Positions 138 through 43,495 of a stretch of 64,000 bases of DNA are shown one piece after another (positions within the stretch are counted from its first letter, which is position 1; every line of letters begins with the position of its first letter). This DNA is from Pseudomonas sp. BN102 (lineage in GTDB: Bacteria; Pseudomonadota; Gammaproteobacteria; Pseudomonadales; Pseudomonadaceae), in contig NZ_SSON01000077.1 in the NCBI RefSeq assembly GCF_029871245.1, positions 238,204-302,203 on the forward strand, given 5' to 3'. The notes beneath the pieces were generated by a model, which worked only from the letters and a program-made list of their open reading frames with translations, did no database searches and was not told the origin of the DNA. Both the position numbers and the translations under genes were made by a program.

Positions 138-854
138 TCAGTGACCGCCGAGGTAGGCGTTGCGGACGTCCTGGTTGCCCAGCAGTTCCTCGCCCGTGCC
201 GCTCATGCGGATTTCCCCGGTGACCATCACGTAGGCGCGGTCGGAGAGCTTCAGCGCATGGTTGGCGTTCTGCTCGACGAGGAAGATGGTCATGCCGGTC
301 TGCGCCAGCTCCCGCAGGGTCTGGAAGATCTGCTTGACCACGATGGGCGCGAGACCCAGGGACGGCTCGTCGAGCAGCAGCAGCTTGGGCCGGCTCATCA
401 GCGCGCGGGCGATGGCGAGCATCTGCTGCTCGCCGCCGGACATGGTCATGGCGCGCTGGTTGCGCCGCTCCTTGAGGCGCGGGAACAGCTCGAACATGCG
501 TTGCATGTCTTCGTCGGCATGGTCCATGCCGATGGGGATGGTGCCCATCAGCAGGTTTTCCTCCACGCTCATGTCGGGGAACACCCGGCGCCCTTCCGGC
601 GACTGGGCGACGCCGTTGGAGGCGACGTAGTCCGCGGAGCGGTGGGTGATGTCGGTGCCGTGATAGACGATCTGCCCGGCCGCCGCGCGCGGCTGGCCGA
701 AGATCGACATCAAGAGGGTCGACTTGCCCGCACCGTTGGAGCCGATCAGGCTCACCGTCTCGCCTTCGTCGATGTGCAGGCTGACTTTCTTCAGGGCCTG
801 GATGGGGCCGTAGAAGACGTCGACATCCTTGAACTCCAGGAGGGGCGCGCTCAT
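138..854 (-). CDS. livF: LivF-type ABC transporter ATPase
   Basis: Second ATPase of a branched-chain/hydrophobic amino acid uptake ABC transporter; it energises import through LivH/LivM at the inner membrane. The 238-residue protein has the usual LivF length. Walker A is GSNGAGKST (38-46), the signature is MSGGEQQ (138-144) and Walker B LLLLDE (158-163) is followed by PSLGLAP, typical of LivF. The ATG overlaps the livG stop by four bases (ATGA), so the two are translationally coupled; a GAGGAGG Shine-Dalgarno lies just upstream. Substrate cannot be read from the ATPase. In P. aeruginosa the matching genes are, from memory, the PA4909-PA4913 transporter rather than braCDEFG. Confidence 0.93.
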   Translation of the reverse strand: MSAPLLEFKDVDVFYGPIQALKKVSLHIDEGETVSLIGSNGAGKSTLLMSIFGQPRAAAGQIVYHGTDITHRSADYVASNGVAQSPEGRRVFPDMSVEENLLMGTIPIGMDHADEDMQRMFELFPRLKERRNQRAMTMSGGEQQMLAIARALMSRPKLLLLDEPSLGLAPIVVKQIFQTLRELAQTGMTIFLVEQNANHALKLSDRAYVMVTGEIRMSGTGEELLGNQDVRNAYLGGH

Positions 855-1723
855 GCCACTTCCTCCTCTTCGGCGCCAAGGTAGGCGGCGATTACCTTGG
901 GATCGTGGCGGATCGCGTGGGGATTGCCCTCGGCGATCACTTCGCCGTGGTCCAGCACCACGATGTAGTCGGAAATGCTCATCACCATGCCCATGTCGTG
1001 TTCGATCAGCAGTACGGTCTGGTCGTGTTCGTCGCGCAGCTTGCGGATGATCCGGCTGAGCGCCTCGGTTTCAGCGGGGTTGAGGCCGGCGGCCGGTTCG
1101 TCCAGGCAGATCAGTTGCGGCCGGGTGCACATGGCGCGGGCGATCTCCAGACGGCGCTGCTGGCCGTAGGAAAGTTCGCCGGCCAGGCGGTTGGCGCAGT
1201 CCACCAGGTCCACCACCTCCAGCCAGTAGAAAGCGTGGTTCAGCGCGTCCTCCTCGGCCCTGCGGAAGCCCGGGGTGTTGAACACGCCGGCCAGCAGGTT
1301 GCGGTTGACCCACATGTGCTGGGCCACCAGCAGGTTCTCCACCACCGACATCTCCCGGAACAGGCGGATGTTCTGGAAGGTGCGCGCAAGACCTACGCGG
1401 TTCACCAGGTGGGTGCCGCCGAACATCTTGTAGTGCAGGCGGCTGGCGAACTGCGCGGGCCGAACGAAGTCGGTCGGCTGGAAGGGCTCGCCGAGCACCT
1501 TGATGATGTCGGTGCTGGTCTCGCGGGTGTTGAGCTGGATGCGCCCGCCGGTGGCCTTGTAGAAACCGGTCAGGCAGTTGAACACGGTGGTCTTGCCCGC
1601 GCCGTTGGGGCCGATCAGCGCGGAGATGGAGCCGCGCTTGATCTTCAGGCTGACGTCATTGAGCGCCTTGATGCCGCCGAAGTGCATCATCAGGTGCTCG
1701 ACGCTGAGGATGTATTCGCTCAT
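851..1723 (-). CDS. livG: LivG-type ABC transporter ATPase
   Basis: First ATPase of the same importer. Walker A is GPNGAGKTT (38-46), the signature region LSYGQQ (184-189) and Walker B LICLDEP (204-210), followed by AAGLNPAE, a LivG hallmark. At 290 residues it is longer than E. coli LivG (255); the extra residues sit at about 61-105, after the first helix, a known variation in this subfamily. The start overlaps the livM stop (ATGA) and is preceded by AAAGGAG. Function as a heterodimer with LivF is inferred from the family and the five-gene operon. Confidence 0.93.
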   Translation of the reverse strand: MSEYILSVEHLMMHFGGIKALNDVSLKIKRGSISALIGPNGAGKTTVFNCLTGFYKATGGRIQLNTRETSTDIIKVLGEPFQPTDFVRPAQFASRLHYKMFGGTHLVNRVGLARTFQNIRLFREMSVVENLLVAQHMWVNRNLLAGVFNTPGFRRAEEDALNHAFYWLEVVDLVDCANRLAGELSYGQQRRLEIARAMCTRPQLICLDEPAAGLNPAETEALSRIIRKLRDEHDQTVLLIEHDMGMVMSISDYIVVLDHGEVIAEGNPHAIRHDPKVIAAYLGAEEEEVA

Positions 1724-3006
1724 GGCGCGACTCCTTTACGCGGGGTGAAGCCGCTGCGGCTGATGCGGATCAGCCCGCGCGGCCGCCAGATCATCATCAG
1801 CACCATGAGGATGCCGAACAGCAGCACGCGGTAGTCGGCGAAGGCGCGCAGCAGCTCCGGGGCGACGGTGAGGACGAAGGCGGCGATCACCACCCCGACG
1901 GTCGAGCCCATGCCGCCGAGCACGACGATGGCGAGGATCAGCGCCGACTCGAAGAAGGTGAAGGACGAGGGGTTGACGAAGCCCTGGTAGCTGGCGAAGA
2001 ACACCCCGGCCAGGCCGGCGGTGGAGGCCCCCAGCATGAACGCCGAGAGCTTCACCAGCACATGGTTCAGGCCCATGGCACGGCAGGCGATTTCGTCCTC
2101 GCGCAGCGCTTCCCAGGCGCGCCCGACCGGCATGCGGGTCAGCCGGTGCTTGACGTAGAGCACCAGCATCACCACCAGGAACAGCACCACGTAAATGAAC
2201 AGGAACTTCAGGTTGGGGTTGTAGGCGATGCCGAAGAACTCGTGGAAGGGCACCCCGCCCTCTTTGGCCCGCCGGCCCAGCTCGAGGCCGAAGAACGTCG
2301 GCGAGGGCACCGACATGCCGTTCGGGCCGCCGGTGAAGTCCAGCCAGTTGTTGAGGATCAGGCGGATGATCTCGCCGAAGCCCAGGGTGACAATGGCCAG
2401 GTAGTCACCGTGCATGCGCAGCACCGGGAAGCCGAGCAGCGCACCGGCCATCGCCGCAATCAGCGGCGACAGCGGCAGCACCGACCAGAAGCCCAGGCCC
2501 AGGTACTCGTAGCCGAGCGCCAGGCCGTAGGCGCCGATGGCATAGAAAGCCACGTAGCCGAGGTCGAGCAGGCCGGCGAGACCCACCACGATATTCAGGC
2601 CGAGGCCCAGCAGCACGTAGATCAGCCCGAGGATGACCACGGTGAGCAGGTACTTGCCGGCGAAGAGCGGGAAAATCACCGCGGCGAGCATGATCAGCGG
2701 AATGATCCAGCGCAGCCGGGTCTTGTAGTCGGGCGCGCGCACGTGGACGCCGGAGCTGGCGCTCTCGAAGCGCTGTATCAGCAGCTCGCCGCGGGCGGTC
2801 TGCAGGTACAGGCTCAGGGCGAAGCGGCCGAGCATGACGACGCCGATCATCGCGCCGACCCGCTTGAACTCCAGGTTGAAGCTGTAGCCGTCGAGGACCA
2901 CGCCGACGATGGGGCCGAACACGATCAGCGCCAGCAGGCCGGCGAGCACCGCATCCAGCAGGCCTTTTTTGATATCGATGGATTTGCTTGCGATAGCCGA
3001 GGACAT
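1720..3006 (-). CDS. livM: LivM-type ABC transporter permease
   Basis: Inner-membrane permease, about 428 residues, the size of Pseudomonas BraE/LivM. The chosen ATG gives MSSAIASKSIDIKKGLLDAV and lies two bases after the livH stop (TAA GC ATG) with GAAGGTG upstream; the open frame extends further but that stretch is the tail of livH in another frame. Many hydrophobic segments are visible, with the family motif VGLAGLLDLGYVAFYAIGAY in the middle, GPNGMSVPSP, and the EAA-like loop MPVGRAWEALREDEIACRAMGL towards the C-terminus that docks on the ATPases. The first ~100 residues form an N-terminal extension with two membrane segments before the conserved core, as in BraE. Confidence 0.92.
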   Translation of the reverse strand: MSSAIASKSIDIKKGLLDAVLAGLLALIVFGPIVGVVLDGYSFNLEFKRVGAMIGVVMLGRFALSLYLQTARGELLIQRFESASSGVHVRAPDYKTRLRWIIPLIMLAAVIFPLFAGKYLLTVVILGLIYVLLGLGLNIVVGLAGLLDLGYVAFYAIGAYGLALGYEYLGLGFWSVLPLSPLIAAMAGALLGFPVLRMHGDYLAIVTLGFGEIIRLILNNWLDFTGGPNGMSVPSPTFFGLELGRRAKEGGVPFHEFFGIAYNPNLKFLFIYVVLFLVVMLVLYVKHRLTRMPVGRAWEALREDEIACRAMGLNHVLVKLSAFMLGASTAGLAGVFFASYQGFVNPSSFTFFESALILAIVVLGGMGSTVGVVIAAFVLTVAPELLRAFADYRVLLFGILMVLMMIWRPRGLIRISRSGFTPRKGVAP

Positions 3007-3008
3007 GC

Positions 3009-3923
<915 letters not shown>

Positions 3924-4075
3924 CACTCAGTCTCGTCTTTTGGGGGACCGACCTTGGGTTCGGTCGGCCTCCGCGAGTGGAATCAGACGGGCACCACTGA
4001 ATTACCGTGTCAAATCGGGTGCTTCCACACCCGGCTCAAGCAGAAAAGGACTTCAGCAGTTTCCCGGAATGCACC

Positions 4076-4194: not shown

Positions 4195-5316
4195 TCACTG
4201 CTGGGCGTACTTACCCTTGTCGTCCCACTCGTAGATCACGTAGTCGGAGACCTTCAGGTCGCCCTTGGCATCCCACTCCTTCTTGCCCATTACGGTTTGC
4301 ACCGGATGGCTCTTCAGCCATTCGGAAGCCTTGGCCGGATCGTTGGAACCGGCGCCATTGAAGCCGGCAGCCAGGGCCTGCAGGGTGGCGTAGGCATAGA
4401 GCGTGTAGCCTTCGGGCTCAAAGCCGCCAGCGCGGAACTTCTCGATCACTGCCTTGCCGTCCGGGATCTTGCGCGGGTCGGCGCCAAAGGTCATCTGTAC
4501 ACCTTTGGTGTACTGCGGGCCACCGGCGGTGGTGACCAGTTCGTCGGTGACGATGCCGTCGCCAGAGAGGAACACGGCGGTCAGGCCCTGCTCGCGCATC
4601 TGGCGGACCAGCGGGCCGGCTTCCGGGTGCAGGCCGCCGAAGTAGACGACCTCGGCACCGGTGGCGCGGATCTTGGTGACCAGGGCGTTGAAGTCTTTCT
4701 CGCCGCGGGTCAGGCCTTCGTACAGGACTTCCTTCACGCCGCGCTTGGCCAGCTGCGCCTTGGTGGCGTCGGCCAGGCCCTGACCGTAGGTGTCCTTGTC
4801 GTGGATGATGGCGACCTTGGTGGCCTTGAGCTTGTCGACGATGTAGTCGCCGGCAACGATGCCCTGCTGGTCGTCACGGCCGCACATGCGGAACATGCCG
4901 GACAGGCCGCGCTCGGTCACGGCCGGGTTGGTGGAGCCGGGGGTCATGGCGATGACGCCCGCTTCGTCGTAGACCTCGGAAGCCGGGATGGTCGAGGAGG
5001 AGCAGAAGTGACCGACCACGGCGATGGCCTTGTCCTGGTCGACCAGGCGGTTGGCGACGGAGACGGCCTGCTTCGGCTCGCAGGCATCGTCAGCCTTGAC
5101 CAGCTTGATCTTCTCGCCGTTGATACCGCCGGCGGCGTTGAGGTCCTCGGCGGCCTGGGTGGCGCCGCGCCAGTATTGTTCGCCAAAGGAAGCGTTGGCG
5201 CCGGTGTGCGGCCCGGCAACGCCGATGACAACATCAGCCTGTACAACGGAAGAAACGCCCAGCGCGGTGGTAACCGCCAGAGCCAGAAAGCCTTTTCTGA
5301 AAATCTTCTGCGACAT
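4195..5316 (-). CDS. livK: Periplasmic amino-acid-binding protein, LivK/BraC family
   Basis: Periplasmic solute receptor (373 residues) that delivers ligand to LivHMGF. The first 27 residues are a Sec signal peptide (charged MSQKIFRKG, hydrophobic core, cleavage after VVQA). The mature part has the Leu/Ile/Val-binding fold: VVIGVAGPHTGANASFGEQY, the Cys pair seen in the family (DDACEPKQAV and GHFCSSSTIP), and EKDFNALVTKIRATGAEVVYFGG. An additional Cys occurs in FRMCGRDD. Start supported by AGGAG eight bases upstream. The sequence is clearly different from BraC as I remember it, so the ligand may not be Leu/Ile/Val; the neighbouring pipecolate/lysine genes make another amino acid possible. Transcription from a sigma-54 promoter is indicated just upstream. 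Confidence 0.9.
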   Translation of the reverse strand: MSQKIFRKGFLALAVTTALGVSSVVQADVVIGVAGPHTGANASFGEQYWRGATQAAEDLNAAGGINGEKIKLVKADDACEPKQAVSVANRLVDQDKAIAVVGHFCSSSTIPASEVYDEAGVIAMTPGSTNPAVTERGLSGMFRMCGRDDQQGIVAGDYIVDKLKATKVAIIHDKDTYGQGLADATKAQLAKRGVKEVLYEGLTRGEKDFNALVTKIRATGAEVVYFGGLHPEAGPLVRQMREQGLTAVFLSGDGIVTDELVTTAGGPQYTKGVQMTFGADPRKIPDGKAVIEKFRAGGFEPEGYTLYAYATLQALAAGFNGAGSNDPAKASEWLKSHPVQTVMGKKEWDAKGDLKVSDYVIYEWDDKGKYAQQ

Positions 5317-5358
5317 GGAGTTTTGCTCCTGAGGTTTTTAGGGTTAGCGCTCGTATTC

Positions 5359-5374
5359 AGCAAGTGGCGTGCCA
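5359..5374 (-). promoter_or_regulatory. Sigma-54 (RpoN) promoter of livK
   Basis: On the minus strand the sequence reads TGGCACGCCACTTGCT, an exact match to the -24/-12 consensus TGGCACG-N4-TTGCW. The -12 element is about 45 bases upstream of the livK ATG, leaving room for a start site and a short leader with the AGGAG ribosome site. Sigma-54 promoters need an activator bound upstream; a candidate NtrC site lies at 5552-5568. Confidence 0.8.
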
Positions 5375-5709
5375 TTAATTCTTGTAGTTGCTCCGCGCCC
5401 TGAAAGGCCTTTCCCACCTCCTTTTTTCTTATTTTTATTCTTATGAATCAATAACTTCCAAATCGATTCAATAATCCCGCAGGCGTGCCTGCAACCCGCC
5501 TGGCATCAGCATGCCAGCACGGTTGGTAACAATAGCCCCACGGTACCTCTTTGCACATCACTGGTGCGCGAAATTTCCCACAGCGCACTGTTACCGCCCT
5601 ACCCTCGTCCCCTCCATCCTGCAAGAAAGAACCCCATGCTTCAAAGCTGTGCAGTGCAATTTTTTCGCGACATGCATCACGCCCTCAAACACTGTTCGTA
5701 GGATGCGGT
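5375..5709. other. livK upstream control region (no gene)
   Basis: This is most of the 393-base gap between the amaA stop and the livK start. Besides the sigma-54 promoter and the NtrC-like site it contains a perfect seven-base dyad CTGGCAT/ATGCCAG (5500-5517), an AT-rich stretch (5420-5475) suitable for DNA bending, and no obvious terminator for amaA. Small open frames on the plus strand here lack ribosome sites and are judged spurious. Confidence 0.55.
5552..5568. promoter_or_regulatory. Candidate NtrC-type enhancer site
   Basis: TGCACATCACTGGTGCG matches the NtrC palindrome TGCACY-N5-GGTGCA at all but the outermost and one inner base, comparable to functional E. coli glnA sites as I remember them. 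It is centred about 190 bases upstream of the -24 element, a normal enhancer distance. A half-site-like GCGCACTGTTACCG lies at about 5584. Role inferred from motif and position only. Confidence 0.5.
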
Positions 5710-6993
5710 CTAGATCACGACCCGCAGACATTGCCCCGCGTGATACAGCGAAAATCCAGCCTCGTAGAGCGAGCTTCTGAGCCCCGGCGCCGCCACCGCC
5801 CGCATGGGCTGGAATGGCATGGGCAGCACCTCTGCATCACCGCTCAGGAGGTACTCGGCAAACGCCTTGCCCACCACGCTGCCGGTGGTCACCCCGCGTC
5901 CGTTGTAACCGGTGAAGGCCAGCAGGCCGGGCGCCGGTTCGTAAAGGCGCATCAGGTGGTCAGGGGTGAAATCGATGCGGCCGGTCCAGGTGAACTCCCA
6001 GTCCAGCTTGCCGAGATACGGGAAGTAGTGGCGCTGTATGCGGTCGGCCCAGGCGCGCAGGAACCAGGCCGGCTTACGCGAGCCGTCGCCCAGGCTGCCA
6101 AGCAGCAGGCGGCCATCGGCGTCGCGGCGGATGCTGCTGAGCACCTGGCGGGTGTCCCACGAGCCCTGCCCGCCCGGCAGGATGCGCGCGGCGGCCTCGC
6201 CCGATAGGGGCGTGGACGCCACCTGGTAGTAGTAACCGGGGAAGAAGTGACGACGCAGCTCGGTCCACTCGCCCTCGGTGTAGGCGTTGGAGGCAATCAC
6301 CACCTGGGGCGCGATGGCCGCGCCATGTTCGCTGATCACGCACCAGTCGGCGCCCTGGCGCTCCAGCCGCAGCACGGGCGAATGTTCGAAGAGCTGGCCG
6401 CCCAGGTATTTCACGGCGCGGGCCAGGCCACGGGTATAGCCCATGGGGTTGAGAGTGCCGGCGCGGCGGTCGAGCAACGCGGCGGCGATCCGGTCGGTGC
6501 CGGTAGCTTCGCGGCAGGCGGCGCCGGTCAGCAGCTCGACCGGCGCACCACGGCGCTGCCACTGCTCGCAGCGGCTGGCGAGGTCGGCCTGGCCACGGGC
6601 GTTGTGAGCCATGTGCAGGGTGCCTTCGCGGCGCAGCTGGCAGTCGATGTCGTAACGGTCGACCAGGGAGAACACCAGCGATGGCGCGGCCCCCAGGGTC
6701 CGATTGAGTCGCTCGCCAGCCTGGCGGCCAAGGCCGGCCTCGATCTCGTCCGGCGGTATCCACATGCCGGCGTTGACCAGCCCGACATTGCGCCCGGAAC
6801 CGCCGTGCCCGGCGGTGTGGGCTTCGAGCAGGCACACGCGCTTGCCGGCCTCCAGCAGGTGCAGGGCGGCGGAGAGGCCGGTGAAACCGGCCCCGATCAC
6901 GCACACATCGACTTTGACCTCGCCGTGCAGCACGGGGCTTTCCGGCAGTTCGGGCGTCAGATATTCCCAGAGGCATTCCTGGCGCAGGGTCAT
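5710..6993 (-). CDS. amaA: L-pipecolate oxidase (FAD-dependent)
   Basis: Flavoprotein of the DadA/GlpO oxidoreductase class, 427 residues, the length of P. putida AmaA. It oxidises L-pipecolate to piperideine-6-carboxylate, feeding the D-lysine/pipecolate branch of lysine catabolism. The dinucleotide-binding motif VDVCVIGAGFTGLSAALHL is at 28-46 (GAGFTG 34-39), and the C-terminal FAD-contact segment FTGYNGRGVTTGSVVGK is near residue 370. The start follows an AAGGA ribosome site. The gene is 28 bases downstream of amaB, so both are one operon. Identification rests on resemblance plus the amaB and amaR neighbours; a generic D-amino-acid dehydrogenase is the alternative. Confidence 0.85.
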   Translation of the reverse strand: MTLRQECLWEYLTPELPESPVLHGEVKVDVCVIGAGFTGLSAALHLLEAGKRVCLLEAHTAGHGGSGRNVGLVNAGMWIPPDEIEAGLGRQAGERLNRTLGAAPSLVFSLVDRYDIDCQLRREGTLHMAHNARGQADLASRCEQWQRRGAPVELLTGAACREATGTDRIAAALLDRRAGTLNPMGYTRGLARAVKYLGGQLFEHSPVLRLERQGADWCVISEHGAAIAPQVVIASNAYTEGEWTELRRHFFPGYYYQVASTPLSGEAAARILPGGQGSWDTRQVLSSIRRDADGRLLLGSLGDGSRKPAWFLRAWADRIQRHYFPYLGKLDWEFTWTGRIDFTPDHLMRLYEPAPGLLAFTGYNGRGVTTGSVVGKAFAEYLLSGDAEVLPMPFQPMRAVAAPGLRSSLYEAGFSLYHAGQCLRVVI

Positions 6994-42193: not shown

Positions 42194-43495
42194 TTATTGC
42201 AAAGTGTGTTGCTCGAGGAACTCGCTCGGCTGCCAGCCTTCGCGGCTGACCAGTCGATTCAGCTCGACGCGCGGCAAGCGCACCGCCAGCAGGATATCGC
42301 CGGCCTCGTCGTGTTCTTCTGTCTGGACCGCACCCAGGGCGAAGAACTGGGCTCGCAACCGGCCGAAACGCTGCGGCAGACGCAGGGTGCCGACGAACAG
42401 GTCCTCGCCCAGCAACTCGGCGACGGCCTGCTCCAGCAGTTCGAGGCCGCTGCCATCGCGCGCCGAGAGCCAGACCCGTTCGGGCTTGCCCTCTTCGTCA
42501 CGCTGAATATGCGGCTCGACGTTTTCCAGGAGGTCCACCTTGTTGTAGACCTCCAGCATCGGCAGCCCCTCGGCGCCGATTTCGCCCAGCACCGCCAGCA
42601 CTTGTTCGATCTGTGCCATGCGTTCGGGCTCATGGGCGTCGATCACATGCAGCAGAAGGTCGGCGTTGGCGGACTCTTCTAGGGTAGCCCGGAAGGCCTC
42701 AACCAGCTTGTGCGGCAGGTGGCGAATGAAGCCCACGGTATCGGCCAGCACGATCGGTCCCAGGTCATCCAGCTCAAGCCGGCGCAGGGTGGGGTCGAGG
42801 GTGGCGAACAACTGGTCGGCGGCGTAGACCTCGGAAGCAGTCAGCGAATTGAACAAGGTGGATTTGCCGGCGTTGGTGTAGCCCACCAGGGAGACTGCCG
42901 GGATATCCGCGCGCTTGCGCCCGCGGCGTGCCTGCTCGCGCTGGCTGCGGACCTTCTCCAGGCGCTGCTTGATCTGGCGAATGCGCACCCGCAGCAGGCG
43001 GCGGTCCGTTTCCAACTGGGTTTCACCCGGGCCACGCAGGCCGATACCGCCTTTCTGGCGCTCAAGGTGGGTCCAGCCACGCACCAGCCGCGTGCTCATG
43101 TGATTGAGCTGGGCCAGTTCGACCTGCAGCTTGCCCTCATGAGTACGGGCGCGCTGGGCGAAGATGTCGAGAATCAGACCGGTACGGTCGAGCACCCGGC
43201 ACTCGAAGGCGCGCTCGAGGTTGCGCTCCTGGCTGGGCGTGAGGATGTGATTGAAGATGACCAACTCGGCCTTCTCGGCCTTGACCAAGTCGTGCAACTC
43301 GTCGACCTTGCCGCTGCCGATCAGGAACTTGGCCGTTGGCTGGTGACGGGAAACGGAGACGAATGCCACCGTGTCCGCACCGGCCGAACGTGCAAGTTCC
43401 AAGAACTCCTGCGGATCTTCGCGCGCCTCGGGATCTTGGCCCTCCAAATGAACCAGGATGGCCCGTTCACCACCACCAGGGCGTTCGAAAAACAA
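42194..43495 (-). CDS. hflX: Ribosome-associated GTPase HflX
   Basis: 433 residues. The N-terminal HflX-specific domain contains LNHMSTRLVRGWTHLERQKGGIGLRGPGETQLE, the diagnostic motif. The GTPase domain has VGYTNAGKSTLFN (G1), DTVGFIRHLPHKL (G3) and NKVDLL (G4). It rescues stalled ribosomes under heat stress in E. coli. The start appears to be TTG (TTG TTT TTC GAA), 12 bases after the hfq stop, with TAGGAG seven bases upstream; the family begins MFFERxGGGE, so the TTG is well supported. Confidence 0.95.
   Translation of the reverse strand: MFFERPGGGERAILVHLEGQDPEAREDPQEFLELARSAGADTVAFVSVSRHQPTAKFLIGSGKVDELHDLVKAEKAELVIFNHILTPSQERNLERAFECRVLDRTGLILDIFAQRARTHEGKLQVELAQLNHMSTRLVRGWTHLERQKGGIGLRGPGETQLETDRRLLRVRIRQIKQRLEKVRSQREQARRGRKRADIPAVSLVGYTNAGKSTLFNSLTASEVYAADQLFATLDPTLRRLELDDLGPIVLADTVGFIRHLPHKLVEAFRATLEESANADLLLHVIDAHEPERMAQIEQVLAVLGEIGAEGLPMLEVYNKVDLLENVEPHIQRDEEGKPERVWLSARDGSGLELLEQAVAELLGEDLFVGTLRLPQRFGRLRAQFFALGAVQTEEHDEAGDILLAVRLPRVELNRLVSREGWQPSEFLEQHTLQ

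Follow-up and report, generated by a model that had tools for sequence, protein, structure and literature searches.

Which signal switches on the livKHMGF genes of Pseudomonas sp. BN102, and through what promoter, is the question raised by the 393-bp gap at 5317-5709 of the window, the whole 64,000-nucleotide stretch of DNA analysed in this study. The gap, which contains all of the regulatory features described here, lies upstream of a gene for a livK-type substrate-binding protein (4195-5316, minus strand; NCBIfam PRK15404, Pfam Peripla_BP_6) that is present in 18 of 18 genomes of the genus and scores 380 bits against PRK15404, under the 477-bit cut-off of that model. Downstream and in the same direction follow livH, livM, livG and livF (138-3926, minus strand), identified by NCBIfam matches as the permease and ATPase genes of this ABC importer, livM above its own cut-off and livH, livG and livF below theirs. 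Upstream of livK, and likewise in its direction, stand amaA- and amaB-type genes for L-pipecolate breakdown, the immediate neighbour being an amaA-type L-pipecolate oxidase gene (5710-6993, minus strand; NCBIfam NF050086, above cut-off). Sequence and gene order point to livK as the orthologue of P. aeruginosa PA4913, the gene order being that which we take to hold in the P. putida locus L052 and the P. aeruginosa locus L038, where neighbours were named by eye; PP_4867 is presumably the P. putida orthologue, judging from the gene order in L052 (pncB, nadE and azurin adjoining, by eye) and from locus numbers. In place of the amaA found here, L052 has a divergent pncB and L038 a LysR gene upstream of livK (both by eye), which suggests that promoter and enhancer travel with livK and not with the upstream gene.

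The genome that holds the window (G000) comprises 6.48 Mb in 81 contigs and, judging from its relatives, belongs to the Pseudomonadaceae. The relatives compared were the best 80 of at least 590 candidate livK loci, at 76-99% identity, and counts out of 76 leave out L043, L046 (Azotobacter), L047 and L058, livK relatives with no sigma-54 site by the pattern used; in L058 a weaker TGGCGC-type candidate was seen by eye. The genus alignment comprises 14 members, L015-L018 being examined separately because of the start-codon pattern, and L019 is a paralogue (73% identical). As a yardstick for the activator we used the glnK-amtB and glnA loci of the same genus.

The initial annotation had claimed an exact -24/-12 match upstream of livK and, about 190 bases upstream of that promoter, an NtrC-type dyad, and both are indeed in place. 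The promoter, TGGCACGCCACTTGCT, occupies 5359-5374 on the minus strand (read 5374 to 5359) at a distance of 43 bp from the ATG of livK (5316), and has the TGGCAC-N5-TTGC form with GG and GC ten bases apart. Judged from the promoter position, transcription is predicted to start at 5348 (minus strand), 12 nt after the -12 C, which would leave an untranslated leader of about 32 nt carrying the Shine-Dalgarno sequence AGGAG (5326-5330, minus strand). The pattern TGGCACGNNNNTTGCW matched exactly once in the window, and with up to two mismatches 17 times against 13.6 expected, so that only the exact match stands out. Across G000 it gave four exact matches and the reversed control none; the other three precede genes that start like GlnA, FlgF and FlgB by NCBIfam (glnA, flgF and flgB), nitrogen and flagellar genes being kinds long known as sigma-54 targets, and the strict form is therefore very selective in this genome. 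Of the best 80 of at least 590 loci, 76 have a sigma-54 site ahead of the orthologue, as do 18 of 18 genus genomes (the 14 aligned and L015-L018), and a simple scan of 5250-5760 gave no sigma-70-like promoter. By its sequence the livK promoter is practically certain to be of the sigma-54 type, and dependence on RpoN is predicted. Genes for rpoN and ntrC are present in G000, both over curated cut-offs, and, like the sites, their geometry and their conservation, this is a matter of direct observation.

The dyad, GCAC-N7-GTGC on the plus strand (GCACATCACTGGTGC, 5553-5567), is centred about 187 bp upstream of the -24 GG and takes the form seen at glnK and glnA; its GCAC and GTGC halves hold the GC-N11-GC spacing, and thus fit the rule given for P. 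stutzeri NtrC sites in the part of that study consulted (PMC8443478). In the window neither the bare GCAC-N7-GTGC (2 seen, 3.2 expected) nor the dyad pattern with up to two mismatches (64 seen, 74 expected) exceeds chance; the glnK/glnA-type form GCACNNNNNYGGTGCG gave 2 matches against 0.27 expected, the other being GCACGCGGCTGGTGCG at 43080-43095. Weak evidence alone, the dyad is lifted above chance by its conservation: 62 of the 76 loci (from the best 80 of at least 590) have a dyad 185-225 bp ahead of the sigma-54 site, as compared with 0.23% of 15,200 dinucleotide shuffles of those regions, figures that form a contrast and not a p-value because related loci share ancestry. Among these 62 dyads from the best 80 of at least 590, the T before and the A after GTGC are kept in every one, and the spacer is variable, with 34 distinct 15-mers, GCAC and GTGC being fixed by selection.

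The dyad does not stand alone. A GTGC half-site at 5585-5588 (minus strand), 21 bp upstream of it, can be read as the right-hand part of a second, degenerate dyad at 5585-5599, which would start 32 bp from the start of the main one. Such a half-site is found 20-21 bp upstream in 61 of the 62 dyad-bearing loci (best 80 of at least 590), where about 2% would be expected from GTGC density, and the second dyad that it implies follows at a step of 31-32 bp in the same 61 of 62, with a degenerate left half that keeps GC-N11-GC in 25 of the 61. Among the 62, drawn from these best 80 of at least 590, only L038 (P. aeruginosa PA7) has the dyad and lacks the half-site. Paired NtrC sites 32 bp apart, about three helical turns, are a feature of the enteric glnA promoter. 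When the full arrangement, dyad-N175-205-sigma-54 site, was sought in the family, it was found in 33 of 119 genomes, once in each, with no match of the reversed control; 31 of these look like livK by sequence and those in G093 and G037 do not, and the 86 genomes without the arrangement were counted regardless of whether they have livK.

Comparison with known nitrogen-regulated promoters of the genus brought out both likeness and difference. At glnK-amtB the GCAC-N7-GTGC dyad was found in 15 of 18 loci (L111-L128; none in L121-L123), and at glnA the dyad GCACGAAAACGGTGC lies 88 bp before the sigma-54 site; the strict sigma-54 pattern has no match at glnK, where the site reads TGGCAAG..TTCTGC by eye. 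As at livK, these dyads occur in tandem with a sigma-54 site downstream, and the tandem step is 31-32 bp at livK, 31 at glnA and 33 at glnK (8 of 8 glnK loci tried). The right half GGTGCG of the livK dyad (GCACATCACTGGTGCG on the plus strand) is common to most glnK/glnA dyads, whereas its left half, GCACA on the plus strand in 62 of 62 livK dyads from the best 80 of at least 590, is unlike that of the strong glnK/glnA dyads and recurs at the weaker of the glnK sites, in 6 of 8 loci. The livK enhancer also lies at a greater distance from the promoter (193 bp between the start of the dyad and the -24 element; 88 bp at glnA), and its second site is degenerate on the other side.

Because a conserved sigma-54 promoter is combined with paired upstream NtrC-type sites, the importer is most likely a nitrogen-scavenging one, and we consider it probable that an NtrC/sigma-54 promoter, assisted by an IHF bend, drives livKHMGF of a nitrogen-scavenging importer of small amino acids. 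Under nitrogen shortage NtrC would be phosphorylated and would bind cooperatively to the strong dyad at 5553-5567 and the weaker site 31-32 bp further upstream (tandem sites near -212); a bend at an IHF-like site (5446-5458) would then bring NtrC into contact with the sigma-54 polymerase some 190 bp away, and the polymerase at 5374-5359 would open the promoter and transcribe from near 5348. The livKHMGF genes would form one transcript, and the importer that it encodes would take up small amino acids, alanine among them, in both L and D form for use as nitrogen sources.

Published work on the orthologues bears on this reading from several sides. PA4913 is reported to be stabilised by L-Ala (most), L-Pro, L-Ser, L-Thr, L-Val, Gly, D-Ala and alpha-aminobutyrate (PMC6829864), so that the initial annotation was right in naming an amino-acid importer and missed its alanine/small amino-acid type; the system is better called an alanine/small amino-acid importer. 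P. aeruginosa mutants in PA4910 and PA4912, which belong to the same operon as PA4913 with the same synteny, are described as using D-alanine less well as a nitrogen source, the PA4912 mutant also D-valine, phenotypes that fit nitrogen scavenging (PMC2542419). Induction of livK by nitrogen limitation, as had been claimed for the importer, is likely in view of the sigma-54 promoter and of an NtrC-type enhancer with matching geometry, right half, tandem spacing and conservation; against it stand protein data from P. putida, in which PP4867 was 16.7-fold lower in N- than in C-limited culture, and the same study gives a PP4867 mRNA change of +1.8, not significant, between N- and C-limited cells and records PP4864, of the same presumed operon, only in N limitation (PMC3325844). 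The main text of an RNA-seq study of P. putida under N limitation lists urt genes and no PP_486x; urtABCD (PP_4841-4844), listed there as likely NtrC-controlled, resembles livKHMGF in being an ABC importer operon and differs, by its published description, in its substrate (PMC7801951). Titles and abstract openings, among which subscription journals are thinly covered, gave no report of sigma-54, NtrC or CbrB binding at PA4913/PP4867.

Carbon supply leaves its mark as well. By our reading of the columns, PA4913 mRNA was 6.9-fold up in crc and 2.1-fold down in crcZ mutants, and in the portion of that work consulted both braC and PA4913 are tied to the CrcZ/Crc carbon cascade (PMC3480352), which lends no support to the contrast that had been drawn between nitrogen control of this importer and leucine/Lrp-type control of braC. 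Since PA4913 mRNA changes in crc and crcZ mutants, carbon control via CrcZ/Crc probably acts on top of nitrogen control, at least in P. aeruginosa.

Whether carbon supply could also act at the promoter turns on two further words in the gap, a TGTTAC element like the CbrB forward subsite (5526-5531, minus strand) and a GTAACA element like the reverse subsite (5589-5594, minus strand, seen in the genus alignment), which flank the dyad, the latter overlapping the degenerate second NtrC-like site. The site inventory of the initial annotation, sound for the sigma-54 site and the dyad, missed the TGTTAC that accompanies the dyad in many relatives. An NtrC-like protein is encoded beside crcZ in G000, in the position that cbrB takes. 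On these words a carbon-limitation promoter can be built, in which CbrB would be the main activator through TGTTAC/GTAACA and the dyad would be secondary. TGTTAC is found at 140-330 bp in 61 of the 76 sigma-54 loci from the best 80 of at least 590, at differing distances, against 3.9% of shuffles, and in 12 of the 14 loci of this set that have no dyad (L039 and L040 have neither); it is also kept in 12 of 14 members of the genus alignment and is absent in L015-L018. Both words are published CbrB subsites (PMC6296734) and recur at crcZ of the same genus, and the crc and crcZ effects on PA4913 mRNA and the higher PP4867 protein in C limitation would agree with such control, although a Crc/CrcZ effect can be post-transcriptional. 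GTAACA, kept in 12 of 14 of the genus alignment, is however found in only 9 of the 76 loci (best 80 of at least 590), and the published consensus TGTTAC-N12-14-GTAACA-N15-19-GTAACA (PMC8871633) is not reproduced: no locus among the best 80 of at least 590 shows the F1-R1 spacing, and 5 show the F1-R2 distance; in the window the reverse word comes before the forward one with 57 bp between, wrong in order and distance. PP4867, matched by gene order, is not among the 61 CbrB ChIP-seq targets of Table 1, obtained under one growth condition (PMC6296734). CbrB as main activator was accordingly demoted, its words being convincing in the window and the genus alignment only, GTAACA kept in so few relatives and the published spacing failing, and we regard this reading as improbable. 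At crcZ itself the resemblance to livK lies in the TGTTACC and GTAACA words, an IHF-like site by eye and a TGGCAC-type promoter, and the difference in the close F1-R1-R2 spacing, present at G000 crcZ and absent at livK. In L049, L053, L055, L056 and L084 (P. oryzihabitans group) no dyad was found and TGTTAC and GTAACA stand at the CbrB F1-R2 distance, a possible switch of activator in that group.

A dual carbon/nitrogen promoter like that of hutU, at which NtrC and CbrB would alternate on neighbouring or overlapping sites, is rather improbable too. It has in its favour that dyad and TGTTAC or GTAACA occur together in 50 of the 76 loci (best 80 of at least 590), that in the window the weak second NtrC-like site shares bases with GTAACA, and that hutU is described as controlled by NtrC and CbrB through overlapping sites (PMC8871633); of 17 genus hutU loci, 6 (L176, L178, L180, L183, L184 and L185; the set is without L188, of 3100 bases) have a distance of 61 bp between the starts of TGTTAC and GTAAC(A/G). 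What speaks against it is that the canonical CbrB spacing is absent and that TGTTAC is missing from 13 of the 62 dyad loci (best 80 of at least 590) and from L015-L018. The hutU promoter shares with livK a sigma-54 site, distant upstream sites and these words, and differs in the reversed order of the two words and in its lack of GCAC-N7-GTGC, for which 600 bp were scanned at each of the 17 loci. Another sigma-54 activator could instead own the dyad, or the dyad could be a chance word, and the importer could respond to the substrate that it takes up. NtrC is one of many sigma-54 activators in G000, which weighs against its identity as the activator here: by our reading, the central activator domain of the ntrC model has matches at some two dozen places. 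The left half of the dyad is invariably GCACA. Form, spacing and tandem step are nonetheless those of glnK and glnA of the same genus, and no sigma-54 activator was found among the livK neighbours searched (LysR, amaA, amaB and liv genes), so that we consider this last explanation very unlikely and NtrC, from the letters of the site, the likely activator.

With the NtrC/sigma-54 promoter as the preferred reading, the DNA between enhancer and promoter deserves attention in its own right. In the window it carries GAAGTTATTGATT (5446-5458, minus strand), one base off the IHF consensus and taken to be IHF-like on that basis, which recurs at the same position in 3 of 7 genus loci (L001, L012 and L013). 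Most other relatives have instead a row of GGTTGC words: three or more, all oriented alike, at 60-185 bp upstream of -24, in 57 of the 76 sigma-54 loci of the best 80 of at least 590 (for example L037, L059, L061, L033, L093, L104 and L109), as compared with 3 of 7,600 shuffles reaching three. Distances between neighbouring words in these 76 loci (best 80 of at least 590) fall at 22-23 bp in 101 of 171 cases and at 45-48 bp in 48, and the letter next after GGTTGC is most commonly A, then C. The window is without such a row and has a lone GGTTGC at 5491-5496; within the genus the row is present, less evenly spaced, in L015-L018 and absent in L001, L012 and L013, which carry the IHF-like word. 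Among these loci of the best 80 of at least 590, none of the 57 with a row has that word and 2 of the remaining 19 do, numbers that are too small to establish an exchange. We know of no protein that binds the row. The literature matches for GGTTGCAC/GTTGCACC concern other matters, by title and abstract opening. The row was also tried as a general regulon signal and rejected: a two-copy pattern gave 33 matches in 8 genomes, 15 of them livK rows by sequence, and no regulon can be read from GGTTGC because the other 18 compare with 19 matches of the reversed control (8 genomes, our sorting). We tentatively suggest, as a possibility rather than an expectation, that a constant NtrC/sigma-54 frame might be completed in two exchangeable ways, by an IHF-like bend in the clade of the window and possibly in P. 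aeruginosa, or by a helically phased row of 3-5 GGTTGC repeats in most other species, bound by a putative protein that would shape the loop or add a third signal, enhancer and promoter being kept and the DNA between them rebuilt.

Several observations concern the promoter-proximal part of the gap and the paralogue. The stretch from AGGAGGTGGGA to the livK ATG (5317-5425) is highly conserved and gapless in the 14 genus members, more than promoter and leader seem to need, and a similar GGAGGG block is seen in P. aeruginosa L038 and L039. The possibility that 5317-5425 contains a short upstream ORF was discarded, since in the genus alignment L012 shows a premature stop in that frame. The leaders of L033 and L038, from promoter to ATG, carry AACAAGAA and AACAACAAC, which resemble Crc/Hfq (CA) sites; in the window livK leader no full AANAANAA motif was seen by eye. 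A braC-type paralogue (G000:C67, L028), 44% identical, has GGTAACA far upstream and a ACAACAACAATG motif near its start, and no sigma-54 site was seen by eye in the 330 bp upstream of it.

The livK promoter is most likely a new example of the known NtrC/sigma-54 switch. Through it, a Pseudomonas importer of wide distribution (PA4913/PP_4867 type) joins the genes that are probably sigma-54-dependent, and nitrogen control of that importer becomes a specific, testable claim. The contrast between GGTTGC row and IHF-like site suggests how the stretch between an enhancer and its promoter can be exchanged without loss of either, and the phased row in other species provides a concrete lead to a DNA-binding protein.
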